Positions 45,015-64,000 of a stretch of 64,000 nt of DNA are shown here, piece after piece. The stretch comes from an uncultured bacterium. Its GTDB lineage: Bacteria; Nitrospirota; Thermodesulfovibrionia; Thermodesulfovibrionales; Thermodesulfovibrionaceae. Each line of letters starts with the position of its first letter. The stretch's first letter is position 1. Position numbers and translations under genes: made by a program. The stretch covers positions 27,116 to 91,115 of the forward strand of contig CALLBR010000004.1 in the NCBI GenBank assembly GCA_937998865.1. Reading direction: 5' to 3'. The notes under the pieces were generated by a model. That model was given only the letters and a program-made list of their open reading frames with translations. It was not told where the DNA came from and searched no databases.

Positions 45015-45275
45015 ATGGATAATAAAACCAAGTTGATGCAGAGGTTAAAGAGAATAGAGGGGCAAATAAGAGGACTTCAAAAAATGATTGAATCTGGCAG
45101 ATCCTGTGAGGAGATTATTACTCAATTTGCTTCTATAAATGGTGCTTTAAAGGGAGCAGGGTTGATGATTGTAAAGTTTTATATTAAAGACTGTTTAACT
45201 AAAAATGAAAGCTCTCATGAAGAAATTGAGAAAGATATAGAGAAAGTTATTAAAACATATATATCAGCTGTTTAG
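45015..45275 (+). CDS. CsoR/FrmR/CstR-family repressor
   Basis: KTKLMQRLKRIEGQIRGLQKMIESGRSCEEIITQFASINGAL; Cys31 and Cys60 present, CsoR His position is Tyr56. Confidence 0.92.
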   Translation: MDNKTKLMQRLKRIEGQIRGLQKMIESGRSCEEIITQFASINGALKGAGLMIVKFYIKDCLTKNESSHEEIEKDIEKVIKTYISAV

Positions 45276-45286
45276 GAGGTGATCTT

Positions 45287-45469
45287 ATGCCCTTATATGA
45301 ATAAAGATGTAAAAAATGTAACAATACTTTCGAGTTTTACAAGCCAATTAATAGAAAAGACGAAAAACAAAAGTGTCCTCTCTGTGGAAATTTTGAGACA
45401 GAGCGTTTAATCTCTTCATTTTTAAATAAGTCAGGCAGCTGTAGTTTTTCCTACAATTTCGGTAGTTGA
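45287..45469 (+). pseudogene. FmdB-family zinc-ribbon protein with in-frame TAA at codon 6
   Basis: MPLYE*RCKKCNNTFEFYKPINRKDEKQKCPLCGNFETERLIS...; TAA at 45302-45304 where the family has MPxYEYRC. Confidence 0.85.
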
Positions 45470-45504
45470 AAAGTAAAGTAGTCGGTAGTTTACCGAAGGA
45501 GGAT

Positions 45505-46462
45505 ATGATGAATTTATCAAGAAGAGGTTTTTTTGACATTATCATCTGTATTTTGTAGCACTCTTTTATTAGGCAATTATGTGGATGCTTCTAAAGGTAA
45601 ATATGCTACTTTAGTTGATATTGATAAATGTGACGGTTGTAAGGATGAATCTATACCACTCTGCACAAAGGCTTGCAGAGAATACAATAAAGATAGAATC
45701 CCAGAACCTCAAAAACCAATTTTACCCTATTGGCCAAGAAAGACTTATGAAGATTGGTCTAATAAAAGAGATAAAATCGACACCTTAACACCTTACAATT
45801 GGATATTTATTCAAAAAGTTAAAATTGAAGATGAAGAAATTTTTATTCCTCGAAGATGTATGCACTGTGATAATCCTCCTTGTGTTCGGCAGTGTCCCTT
45901 TGGCGCATTATCTAAGTATTCTGAGGGAAATTCTGTAATTAATGATAAATTATGTTTTGGTGGAGCAAAATGCAGAGATGTTTGTCCTTAGCATATTCCT
46001 CAAAGACAAGCTGAAGTTGGAATTTATCTGAAGATCTTGCCTAAGTATGCTGGAGGCGGAGTAATGTATAAATGTGATTTATGCAAAGATCGAATAAAAA
46101 AGGGACAAGAACCAGCCTGTGTTGTTGCTTGTAAAGAACGACTGGGAGAAAAAGCAGTATTTACTTTTGGTTTAAGAGAACAAATTTATGATATGACATT
46201 GAAGAGAGCAAAGAATGAAGGATTATACATATATGGTGATAGACAGAACGGAGGAACTTCAACTCTTTACCTTTCTAAAATTCCCTTTGAAAGGATAAAC
46301 AATGCTCTTAAAGCCCATAATGAGAGATTTCAAATGCCTCTAAAGGTGGAAAATAAAATAGAGTCTACCTTTAATCCAATTGGTAAAGTAGCGCTCCTTT
46401 CTGGAGCTTTATCCATGGTGGGAGCTATTGTGGGAGCAATAAAATCTAAGAAAAATCCATAA
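45505..46462 (+). pseudogene. Tat-exported 4Fe-4S ferredoxin-type oxidoreductase subunit, frameshifted in poly-T and with internal TAG
   Basis: M(M)NLSRRGF [T7 run 45528-45534 shift] LTLSSVFCSTLLLGNYVDASKGKYATLVDIDKCDGC... CRDVCP*(TAG 45989-45991)HIPQRQAEVGIYLKILPKYAGGGVMYKCDLC; homology continues through both lesions. Confidence 0.85.
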
Positions 46463-46475
46463 AAGGAGGAAAACA

Positions 46476-47149
46476 ATGAAAAGTAAAATAAGAAGACACA
46501 GTAAAATAGAACTTATAGAGCATTGGAGTATTGCTTTGTCAGGTATTGTACTTCTTTTTACTGGTTTAGGTTGTTTACCTCTTTACAAAATATAAGTGAA
46601 ATACCAGGTTTTGCTTGGACAGCTGATTTTTACAATGTTACTCTTATTCATTACATTGCTTCAATAGTATTTCTTTGTGGTGTTGTCTTTCATATTTTTT
46701 ATCATGGACTAAGAAAAGATTATGGTCTTTTGCCCAAAAAGGGAGATATTTCAAAGGGTATTAAAGTTTTATTGGCAATGATAGGTATTGGGAAAGAACC
46801 ACCTTCAGAGAAATATCTACCAGAACAGAGAATTGCCTATGTAGGAATTGGATTTGTCATAATTTTACTTCTCATAACAGGTATAATAAAAATTCTAAAA
46901 AATTTGGAGTGGATTTTATTATCGCCAGAAGTGGAAAGCATAAACACTATAATTCATACTCTTTCAGGTTTTCTTTTTTTGCTTGCCTTCATAGTTCATG
47001 TAGGTACAGTACTAATTTTTCCTTCAAATTGGCCTCTTTTGAAAAGCATGTTTACTGGTTATGTAGATGAGGAAGATGCTAAGCACAGACATTCTTTATG
47101 GTATAACAAGATTAAAAGAGATTTGACTGCTATAATTTTGGGCAAGTAA
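46476..47149 (+). pseudogene. Cytochrome b-type membrane subunit (FDH gamma/cytochrome b561-like), frameshifted near 46580-46600
   Basis: MKSKIRRHSKIELIEHWSIALSGIVLLFTGLGCLPLYK then stop at 46593-46595; continues in another frame as NISEIPGFAWTADFYNVTLIHYIASIVFL. Confidence 0.82.
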
Positions 47150-47839: not shown

Positions 47840-48610
47840 ATGAAATCAATTTTTAGATATTTAGGAATTAATGTATTAAATTTGTTTGTCTTCTTAGGAA
47901 AAATGTTTTTATTTCTCACGGAGATATTCTATTGTCTCCTAATTCCTCCTTTTAGATTTAAAAATTTATTGAGGCAGATAAGATTCTTCGGAAATAAGTC
48001 TATGATTGTTGTTGTTTTTACGGGTGCTTTCAGTGGGATGGTATTGGCTCTGCAGGGTTTTTATGCTCTCAACAAATTTGGAGCTGAAGCTTTATTAGGT
48101 CCTGTGGTAGCTCTCTCTCTAATTAGAGAGCTTGGTCCTGTTTTATGTGCTTTAATGGTTACAGGAAGGGCAGGTTCGGCAATAACTGCAGAAATCGGGA
48201 TTATGAAGATTACTGAACAGCTTGATGCTCTTACTGTTATGGCAGTAAATCCAATGAAATATGTAGTTGTTCCAAATATTCTTGCTGGTGTAATAACTTT
48301 TCCTCTCCTTACTGCTATATTTGATGTAATAGGAATTTACGGTGGTTACTTAGTTTCTGTTCATGCTTTGGGGCTAAGTGAAGGAACATACTTTGCACAA
48401 ATGGAACTATATGTTGATATGGAGGACATTAGAATTGGTTTATATAAAGCGTTAAGCTTCGGACTGCTTGTAAGTTGGATTTGCACTTTCATGGGCTATA
48501 ATGCAGGTTATGGTGCAAGAGGTGTTAGTAAAGCCACTACAAATGCTGTAGTGCTCTCTTCAGTAGTAATTCTTTTGTGGGACTACATGCTTGGAGCTTT
48601 TCTTTTATGA
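47840..48610 (+). CDS. mlaE: MlaE-family ABC transporter permease
   Basis: VVVFTGAFSGMVLALQGFYALNKFGAEALLGPVVALSLIRELGPVLCALMVTGRAGSAITAEIG. Confidence 0.95.
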   Translation: MKSIFRYLGINVLNLFVFLGKMFLFLTEIFYCLLIPPFRFKNLLRQIRFFGNKSMIVVVFTGAFSGMVLALQGFYALNKFGAEALLGPVVALSLIRELGPVLCALMVTGRAGSAITAEIGIMKITEQLDALTVMAVNPMKYVVVPNILAGVITFPLLTAIFDVIGIYGGYLVSVHALGLSEGTYFAQMELYVDMEDIRIGLYKALSFGLLVSWICTFMGYNAGYGARGVSKATTNAVVLSSVVILLWDYMLGAFLL

Positions 48611-49362
48611 TTGAGATAAAAAACCTCTATAAATCTTTTGGAAAACAAGAAGTTTTAAGAGGTGTTAATCTTGTAATCCAAGAAGGCCAGGTAACAGCAA
48701 TTATTGGAAGAAGTGGGGGAGGTAAATCAGTCCTCTTGAAACATATTGTGGGGTTACTAAAGCCTGACAGAGGAAGTATTTTCATAAAGGGAGAAGATAT
48801 AACTAAGCTCAAAGGCAATAAGCTTGATCAAATAAGAAGCCAAATTGGAGTAGTCTTTCAGGGAGGAGCACTTTTTGATTCCATGACAGTTTATGAAAAT
48901 GTTGCCTTTCCCTTGAGAGAGAAAACAAAGCTTGATAAAAATGTTATTCATGAGGCTGTGCTAAAGTCTCTTCATGATGTTGGATTAGATGGTATGGAGT
49001 ATAAATATCCAGCGGAACTAAGCGGAGGAATGCGTAAAAGAGTTGCTCTTGCCAGAGCTCTTATTGGAAAACCCAAGATAATACTTTTCGATGAACCCAC
49101 CACTGGACTTGATCCAATTTTAGTACGTTCCATACACAAACTTATTAAAAATACTCAGAAGCAGTATGGGTTCACAGGCTTAATAATTAGTCATGAAATT
49201 CCTGAAATATTTGAGATTTCAGATACTGTTGCCCTACTTCACGAAGGTACGATTATAGAGGTGGGAACTCCCCAAGAGATTCAAGAAAGTGATAACATTA
49301 TTGTAAAAAAATTTATAAAGGGAATAGAACAGGGAGGTAATAATGAAACGGGAAAATCTTGA
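48607..49362 (+). CDS. mlaF: MlaF-family ABC transporter ATP-binding protein
   Basis: MIEIKNLYKSFGKQEVLRGVNL; GRSGGGKSVLLKHIVGLL; LSGGMRKRVALARAL; start re-assigned from 48577. Confidence 0.95.
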   Translation: MIEIKNLYKSFGKQEVLRGVNLVIQEGQVTAIIGRSGGGKSVLLKHIVGLLKPDRGSIFIKGEDITKLKGNKLDQIRSQIGVVFQGGALFDSMTVYENVAFPLREKTKLDKNVIHEAVLKSLHDVGLDGMEYKYPAELSGGMRKRVALARALIGKPKIILFDEPTTGLDPILVRSIHKLIKNTQKQYGFTGLIISHEIPEIFEISDTVALLHEGTIIEVGTPQEIQESDNIIVKKFIKGIEQGGNNETGKS

Positions 49363-60259: not shown

Positions 60260-63200
60260 ATGGAGTTGACAAGGCGAAGTTTCTTAAAGCTCTCCACAGG
60301 CGCTTTGCTTCTCAGTTCAATTGGTCTTAATCTTGAGCCAGCAAAGGCATACGCTGCTGAACTGAGAACAAAAGGCGCTAAGGAGACAACTACAGTATGT
60401 CCTTACTGTTCTGTAGGGTGTAGTATTATTGTTTCTGTGAAAGATGGTAAGGTTATTAACACAGAGGGTGACCCTGATAGTCCTATTAATGAAGGATCTC
60501 TTTGTCCGAAGGGGGCTTCAATCTATCAAATGGCAAATAATCCTTACAGACTAACTGAACCCCTTTACAGAGCACCTGGAGCAAATCAATGGAAGAAAAT
60601 CTCATGGGAAGAGGCATTAGATAAGATTGCAAAGCTAGTTAAAAAGACAAGAGACAAATATTTTATGGTAAAGAATGAAAAAGGTCAAGTAGTAAATAGA
60701 ATTGATGCTATTGCCCATGTGGGTTCAGCTGCCCTTGATAATGAGGAATGTTATCTTCTACAAAAATTAATGCGTTCTTGGGGGCTTGTTTATATTGAAC
60801 ATCAAGCCCGTATATGACACTCCCCCTCTGTAGCGGCTCTGGCAGAGTCGTTTGGTAGAGGAGCAATGACCAATCAATTTAACGACCTTAAAAATGCTGA
60901 TGTAATTCTCATAATGGGTGGAAATCCCGCAGAAAATCATCCTATTGCGATGAAGTGGATAATGAGAGCAAAAGAAGAAAGAGGTGCTAAGCTTGTTGTT
61001 GTTGATCCTAAATTCACAAGAACTGCCTCCAAGGCAGATCTCTATGTTCCAATCCGTTCCGGGACTGATATCGTATTTCTAGGTGGACTAATAAAGTATA
61101 TAATAGACAACAACTTATACTTTAAAGATTATGTTCTTAACTATACTGACGCATCTTTTCTGGTTGATCCTAACTTTAAACTTCCTGATGAATTAGATGG
61201 AGTATTCTCTGGTTATGATGAGAAAAAGAGAGCTTATGATAAATCCACTTGGAAATATCAACTTGATGAAAATGGAGTTCCTAAAAAAGATCCTTCATTG
61301 CAGCATCCAAATTGTGTATTTCAACTTTTGAAGAGACATTACACGAGATATACAATAGATACTGTTTCTGACATAACTGGAGCTCCTAAGGATAAAATTG
61401 AAGAATGTTATAAGATTCTTGCTTCCACAGGCAAACCAGACAAAGTAATGACAGAATGTTATGCCATGGGTTGGACGCAGCATACTGTGGGTACCCAAAA
61501 TATAAGAGCATTCACCATAATTCAACTTCTACTTGGCAATGTGGGAATGGCTGGAGGAGGTGTTAACGCTCTCAGAGGTGAGTCCAATGTTCAGGGTGCC
61601 ACAGATGCAGGACTTCTTTTCCATATCTTGACTGGATATAATCCAACCCCTGTGGCCAGTGATGTTGATCTTAAGACCTATATTGAAAAATATACGCCAA
61701 AAACAAAAGAGCCAAAAAGTGTTAACTGGTTGTCTAATAGACCTAAGTACATAATCAGTTATCTAAAGGCATTGTATGGAGACAAAGCTACTAAGGAAAA
61801 TGATTTCTGTTACAGTTATTTACCTAAGAGAGATGATGGTCAAAACTGTTCTTGGCTTATGATTTTTGATCAGATGTACCAAGGTAAGATTAAAGGGTTC
61901 TTTGCTTGGGGACAGAATCCTGCCTGTTCTGGTGCTAACTCAAACAAAACAAGAAGAGCTCTTGCTAAACTTGATTGGCTTGTTTGTGTAAATCTTTTTG
62001 ATAATGAAACTGCTTCCTTCTGGCGTGGACCAGGAATGGATCCAAAGAAGATTAAAACAGAAGTATTTCTGCTTCCATGTGCTTCCTCAGTGGAAAAGGA
62101 AGGAAGCATCACGAATTCTGGCAGAATAGCACAATGGAGATACAAAGCAGTTAATCCTTATGGTAAATCATTGCCTGATGCAGAGATTATGAATGAATTA
62201 TACTTTAGAGTTAAAAAGTTGTATGAAAAAGAAAAAGGAGCATTTCCAGAGCCCATAATCAATCTTACTTGGAATTATGGAGAGGCCGACAAGAATGGAA
62301 AAATCAAACATATAGACATTCACAAAGTTGCAAAAGAAATAAATGGTTATTTCACTTCAGACATACCTGAACATCCTGTTGATAAGAAAGCTTATAAAAA
62401 AGGTCAGCAGATTCCCAGCTTTGTTTACTTAAAAGATGATGGAAGTACTGCTTGCGGAAACTGGATTTATTGTGGTAGCTACACCGAGGCAGGAAACATG
62501 ATGGCAAGAAGAGGAAAAGAAGATCCCACAGGACTAGGTTTATTCTCTAACTGGGCATGGTCTTGGCCTGTAAATAGAAGAATTATTTACAACCGAGCAA
62601 GTGTAGATCCACAGGGTAATCCATGGGATCCAAAGAGACCATTAATTAAATGGGATGCGGCTAACAAGAAATGGGTAGGAGATGTACCAGATGGTCCGGC
62701 TCCACCTCTTGCTTTGGAAGGTGGAAAACTTCCATTTATTATGAAACCTCTAGGTGTAGGAGCCCTATTTGGACCAGGTTTAGCAGATGGACCTTTCCCA
62801 ACTCATTATGAACCTCTGGAATGTCCATTCCAGGAAAATCCTCTATATAAGAAACACAGAATTAATCCAACAGTGAAAATTTTTGATACGGAAGAGGATG
62901 TCTTTGTTTTCTGTGATACAAGATATCCTTATGTTGGAACTACCTATAGAGTAACTGAACACTGGCAGACAGGAGTTATGACAAGACATTCTGACTGGCT
63001 CCGTGAGCTTGAACCTCAAATTTTTGCAGAAATAGATCCAGTTCTTGCAAAAGAAAAGGGGATTAAAAGCGGTGATAAAGTTATTGTATCCTCAGCAAGA
63101 GGAAAAATCTGGGCAATTGCTATAGTAACACCAAGACTTCAGCCCATGAAAGTTTTAGGACAGACAATACATATTGTAGGCTTGCCATGGCATTATGGAT

Positions 63201-63322
63201 GGAGATTCCCTGAAGATGGTTCAGGTGGAGATAGTGCAAATCTTCTTACACCAACAATAGGTGATGCAAATACCATGATACCTGAGTCTAAGGCATTCAT
63301 GGTAAACATAGAGAAGGCATAG
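60260..63322 (+). CDS. fdnG: Formate dehydrogenase (FdnG/FdoG-like) catalytic subunit, Tat-exported selenoprotein; Sec at UGA 60815-60817
   Basis: Tat signal MELTRRSFLKLS; CPYCSVGCSIIV; HQARI-U-HSPSVAALAESFGRGAMTN continuous through TGA; ORF track splits it at the UGA. Confidence 0.95.
60815..60850 (+). promoter_or_regulatory. Sec UGA and putative bacterial SECIS hairpin
   Basis: CTCTG (60826-60830) / CAGAG (60843-60847) stem with GGCTCT loop region immediately 3' of TGA. Confidence 0.7.
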
Positions 63323-63332
63323 GAGGTAAAAG

Positions 63333-64000
63333 ATGGCACGTAAGGGATTGTTAATAACACCAGATATATGCATAGGATGCAGAGCTTGTCAGGTAGCCTG
63401 CAAAGAATGGAATCAACTTCCTGCTAGTAAAACAAAAAACAATGGTACCCATGAAAATCCTCCAGACCTTGATGAAAATACCTATAACAGAATTAAATTT
63501 ATAGAGCATGCTGATACAAAAGGAGTAAGATGGCTTTTTGTAAGCCATCGTTGTATGCATTGTGGTGAACCTGCTTGTGTTAGCATATGTCCAGTTGCAG
63601 CATTAATTAAGGACAAAGAGACAGGGATTGTGTATTATGATAAAAAGAAATGTATAGCCTGTCATGCCTGTAGAACAGCCTGTCCCTATGATATACCGAG
63701 GTATGATCAGGGAGGTAAAGGTAAGATTTCGAAATGTCATTTTTGTATTGACAGAGTAAAGGCAGGACTTACTCCAGCCTGTGCAAAGACTTGTCCTACA
63801 GATGCAATAAAGTACGGAGATAGAGATGCTCTTATAAAGGAAGCGAAAGGGAAGGGATTCAAGCTTTATGGAGAGACAGAATTTGGAGGACTTGGAGTAG
63901 TCTTTGCACTTAAGGATTCACCAAAGGTATACAAACTTGCTGAGAATCCTCGAATACCAGAGACAGCCCTGTTTTGGGGTTCTGTGTTGAAGACTCTTGT
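63333..64000 (+). CDS. fdnH: Formate dehydrogenase iron-sulfur subunit (FdnH-like), truncated by window end
   Basis: MARKGLLITPDICIGCRACQVACKEWNQLP; CMHCGEPACVSICPVAALIK; CIACHACRTACPYDIPRYD; open to window end so absent from ORF track. Confidence 0.93.
   Translation, partial: MARKGLLITPDICIGCRACQVACKEWNQLPASKTKNNGTHENPPDLDENTYNRIKFIEHADTKGVRWLFVSHRCMHCGEPACVSICPVAALIKDKETGIVYYDKKKCIACHACRTACPYDIPRYDQGGKGKISKCHFCIDRVKAGLTPACAKTCPTDAIKYGDRDALIKEAKGKGFKLYGETEFGGLGVVFALKDSPKVYKLAENPRIPETALFWGSVLKTL

Follow-up and report, generated by a model that had tools for sequence, protein, structure and literature searches.

The best solved relatives of the two central proteins at the locus described here belong to formate dehydrogenase-N, where FdnH (1kqf_B) corresponds to the Fe-S protein and FdnI (1kqf_C) to the cytochrome. 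Like in that enzyme, a Tat-exported, C-terminally anchored protein with four Fe-S clusters forms a pair with a cytochrome of the b type that has about 218 amino acids, and the intact Fe-S protein indeed has a twin-arginine signal as well as a hydrophobic C-terminal segment. In contrast to FdnGHI, however, there is no catalytic alpha subunit beside the pair, and genes of an FmdB-family protein and a CsoR-type regulator are attached. When the intact proteins of the nearest relative, the sister genome, were tested against the NCBIfam cut-offs, the FDH-beta model gave 76.7 bits (cut-off 334.7) and the FDH-gamma model 74.1 bits (cut-off 115.85). The best full-length NCBIfam matches of the Fe-S protein are HmcB and HybA, but also these remain under the cut-offs (109.5 versus 420 bits and 87.2 versus 263 bits, respectively), and the membrane partner is a cytochrome of the b561 type, unlike the NrfD/HybB-like partners of the Hmc and Hyb systems. 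With scores below these thresholds, the pair is thus FdnHI-like and lies outside the curated families.

Another known situation to which the locus can be compared is the formation of pseudogenes in respiratory operons by lineage-specific loss, where frameshifts, nonsense changes and deletions are clustered in the same way and the sister copies are intact. The window, which is the whole stretch of 64,000 nucleotides that was analysed, belongs to a Thermodesulfovibrio (Nitrospirota), as judged from named homologues. Its csoR-fmdB-FeS-cytB cassette does not differ in kind from such pseudogenised operons, and what is notable is the repeated loss of one cassette within a genus. It is very likely that this cassette is a recently pseudogenised operon in which fmdB, FeS and cytB are disabled. 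Literature searches found no published account of the cassette or its decay.

The cassette and its lesions

The gene order is pyruvate kinase, LysR, csoR, fmdB, FeS, cytB and a small cysteine-rich gene, and all cassette features described in the following are on the + strand. The first cassette gene encodes an intact CsoR/FrmR-type repressor of 86 amino acids (45015-45275; Pfam PF02583, E 1.7e-25), which is unbroken in the window and in the sister and adjoins the cassette in most genomes of the genus. It is followed by three adjacent genes that carry six disabling changes, which were called by alignment with the sister genome G009 and two further genomes. The fmdB-family zinc-ribbon gene (45287-45469; TIGR02605, E 2.3e-16 on read-through) has a TAA at codon 6 (45302-45304), where three relatives have TAT and the frame is open. 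The Fe-S protein gene (45508-46462, HmcB/HybA/FdnH-like, for a Tat-exported, C-terminally anchored protein with four [4Fe-4S] clusters) contains a +1 frameshift, an internal TAG and a premature TAA. In the gene of the b-type cytochrome (46476-47149, formate-dehydrogenase-gamma/Ni_hydr_CYTB-like; PF01292, E 7.3e-16; TIGR01583, E 4.6e-13), alignment with relatives reveals a 7-nt deletion with its junction at 46589/46590, so that only a stub of 39 amino acids is read from the ATG and the rest lies in another frame; moreover, the stop codon is lost (TTG at 47123-47125, TAG in the sister), and the frame runs on to a TAA at 47147-47149.

The first-pass annotation had described the Fe-S gene as that of a Tat-exported protein with a frameshift in a run of seven T and with a Trp codon changed to TAG, and both lesions are real, but the damage was understated, as it extends to the decay of a three-gene operon and is recurrent across the genus. 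The T7 run at 45528-45534, within the twin-arginine signal peptide, and the out-of-frame LTLSSVFCS are exactly where and as they had been given. From the start codon, which is the ATG at 45505 or at 45508, the gene translates to MNLSRRGFFDIIICIL and a stop, whereas the other frame is open just past the T7 run with LTLSSVFCS, reaches the TAG at 45989-45991 and ends at the TAA at 46460-46462, where the sister has CAA and by which the last 8 residues are lost. The orthologues of ten other Thermodesulfovibrio genomes are open at the start and have M-x-x-SRRGF-L/F or SRRNF-F in a single open frame, so the SRRGF-type N-terminus is genuine in the genus, and in these relatives the signal peptide is read in frame without a T7 tract. 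Among 80 homologues, from loci in Nitrospirota, Thermodesulfobacteriota, Firmicutes and others, 74 carry the motif [SNT]RRxF, and at the TAG position all 80 have Trp; a natural gene boundary at 45991 is found in none of the orthologues, so neither of the two findings that would have spoken against the first-pass description applies. Close homologues with 66-91% identity, the 91% being that to the sister, were detected in 11 genomes of the same genus, and an internal stop is reported among these for G006 only, while in G003 the contig ends inside the gene.

Conditional expression or recoding

As the frameshift does sit in a T7 run and the genome is AT-rich, it could be supposed that the Fe-S protein is made conditionally, being turned on or off by slippage at this run, either in replication or in transcription, which had also been considered in the first-pass annotation. 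Runs of A or T with at least seven letters occur 64 times in the window, so a T7 is common here, and it is shorter than the nine nucleotides from which, according to a survey of 108 genomes, selection against slippage is most often evident (PMC1088944). The tract is also not conserved, as the relatives have TTCTT, TTTCC, TTTTTA and the like in frame, with at most five T or with an interrupted run. Moreover, a change in the run length does not restore the full frame, because the TAG at 45989 remains in the restored frame, and the stop at codon 6 of fmdB and the 7-nt deletion in cytB are beyond the reach of the T tract. A gene that is toggled at the T7 run is therefore extremely improbable, and one candidate for a slippage-regulated Tat protein is removed.

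The conserved frame continues for 156 codons past the TAG, and this would fit with a decoding of the TAG as an amino acid, by a suppressor tRNA or a changed code. However, many intact genes of the window terminate in TAG, none of the homologues has a TAG at the Trp site, and a recoded TAG would not repair the TAA codons and frameshifts, by which all three genes would remain broken. This leaves recoding with practically no likelihood.

Comparison with the nearest relative

The assembly that contains the window (1.75 Mb, 99.9% complete) consists of 46 contigs, and an indel in a homopolymer is a classic error, so mistakes of sequencing, assembly or binning in this draft genome have to be considered. 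Contig 1 of G009 (51,272 bp) could be aligned end to end with positions 12324-63605 of the window at 93.2% identity, and this colinear stretch of 51.27 kb gives the background rate of lesions. It contains 48 ORFs of the sister, of which only those of FmdB, the Fe-S protein and cytochrome b are disabled in the window. In the other 45 ORFs there is neither an uncompensated internal frameshift nor an internal stop, and whatever else was flagged there concerns minor changes at the C-terminus or stops that precede the probable true start. Unpaired frameshifting indels well inside genes number just two, both of them in the cassette, and single-base indels were seen otherwise at the extreme ends of two genes. 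As no other gene is disabled in this comparison, the clustering of the lesions is not due to chance, and as random assembly error would not leave the other 45 ORFs untouched, it is the operon that has been pseudogenised and not the assembly that is noisy. The substitutions and the 7-nt deletion are outside homopolymers and all lie in three genes of one operon, and the same locus has decayed in other genomes as well, which makes errors in the draft very unlikely. A closely related genome can hence settle a draft-genome observation of a frameshift plus a stop.

Some minor differences to the sister were found elsewhere in the stretch. Pairs of opposite 1-nt indels, 7-11 nt apart and keeping the frame, are present at three coding sites, 14619/14629, 22556/22563 and 26852/26863, and these are either real compensated frameshifts or alignment effects. 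In the gene at 48577-49362 (+), which is an ABC transporter ATPase gene by its sequence motifs only, the stop codon of the sister is changed to CAG, so that the product is about 10 residues longer than that of the sister and the gene overlaps with the next one.

Age of the decay

The disabling took place on the branch to this Thermodesulfovibrio species after its split from the nearest relative. It involved, in fmdB, FeS and cytB, one insertion of 1 nt, one deletion of 7 nt, the loss of a stop codon and three nonsense changes, while the CsoR-type regulator was spared. Pairwise dN/dS is 0.16, 0.15 and 0.13 for the three genes versus a window median of 0.097. When the changes were polarised with four outgroups and nonsense changes were left out, the ratio of nonsynonymous to synonymous changes on the window branch was 27:30 for the three genes and 26:70 for the neighbours (Fisher P 0.014), and on the sister branch it was 19:36 versus 15:67. 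The three genes thus evolve fast also on the branch where they are intact, and the difference between their two branches is not significant (P 0.18). As dN/dS is only mildly above the median and the sister branch is also fast, few neutral substitutions have accumulated relative to the six lesions, and the branch figures suggest that the decay is recent relative to the species split, with selection acting along most of the branch. The ratio of the six disabling changes (45287-47149) to the modest nonsynonymous excess looks high for a simple neutral decay, although the numbers are small.

Recurrent loss in Thermodesulfovibrio

The FeS-cytB pair is intact at the same site in G002, G004, G008 (strain N1), G009, G011, G012, G013 and G014, and besides the sister at least seven genomes of the genus have open orthologues in colinear order. 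In G010 (L109:9251-10666), FeS continues without a break of the frame into cytB at its residue 66 owing to an in-frame deletion, and this may be a fusion protein or a relic. A remnant is left in G015, with 27 codons of the Fe-S gene including a stop, joined to a cytochrome gene with three stops, and G001 and G007 have lost both genes of the pair. G006 has a degraded copy elsewhere in the genome, and in G005 no orthologue was found, the LysR marker being absent there as well. When a tree was built from the two flanking genes, pyruvate kinase and LysR, G000, G010, G001, G006 and G007 together with G015 came out as separate tips, which indicates at least four, and probably five, independent losses of the pair among 15 Thermodesulfovibrio genomes. 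The position of G001 in this tree has weak support (38), and several genomes are incomplete drafts. The repeated loss of the module in this genus is gene loss of an ordinary, recurrent kind and does not represent a regulated switch.

The zinc-ribbon gene fmdB has been retained intact in G001, G015 and G007 (loci L122, L123 and L124) after the loss of the FeS/cytochrome pair, and may therefore have a role of its own.

Possible function of the intact module

The Tat signal, the C-terminal hydrophobic segment and the similarity of the cytochrome to the gamma subunit of formate dehydrogenase-N, which reduces quinone, suggest that the working module most likely took up electrons from a donor in the periplasm and delivered them to the quinone pool. 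Only the FeS-cytB pair is constant when the neighbours at homologous loci are clustered (72 of 78), whereas csoR is present at 21 loci and fmdB at 10 or more, and there is no recurrent catalytic subunit among the neighbours of the 80 homologous loci; at most of the loci, no catalytic gene accompanies the pair. A conserved Fe-S/cytochrome b pair without a catalytic subunit, occurring from Nitrospirota to Firmicutes and repeatedly discarded by Thermodesulfovibrio, is a useful by-product of this analysis. The counts of catalytic genes support no particular partner for the pair, and also the presence or absence of PF00374 (NiFe hydrogenase) and PF00384 (molybdopterin) does not separate genomes with an intact cassette from those with a broken one.

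For strain N1, a periplasmic uptake hydrogenase and a formate dehydrogenase without membrane subunits have been described, and Hmc has been proposed as the route, with no mention of the FeS/cytochrome b pair in the section consulted of that genome paper (PMC5165239). The pair could be an alternative entry from the periplasm to the quinones that is redundant with Hmc. Thermodesulfovibrio also has other routes, namely Hmc and periplasmic cytochromes, which may make the module dispensable in some niches, and such a redundancy might be the cause of the repeated loss. It may tentatively be considered, although it is rather doubtful, that csoR-fmdB-FeS-cytB is an uncharacterised niche-dependent periplasm-to-quinone module and possibly the membrane partner reported lacking for the periplasmic formate dehydrogenase and uptake hydrogenase of Thermodesulfovibrio, in which case the repeated losses would indicate lineages in which these electrons are channelled through Hmc. 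The natural series of losses can be compared with growth phenotypes, such as the use of H2, formate and thiosulfate, and this may lead to the role of the module.

No molybdopterin gene adjoins the cassette, and the nearest one in the window, about 13 kb away, is that of a selenocysteine-containing formate dehydrogenase alpha subunit with an Fe-S gene of its own, which begins at 63351. This alpha subunit gene (60260-63322, +; TIGR01553, 1192.6 bits) is formed by the ORFs 60260-60817 and 60866-63322, which are joined through a single in-frame TGA at 60815-60817, and it would be split by a gene caller that does not consider selenocysteine.
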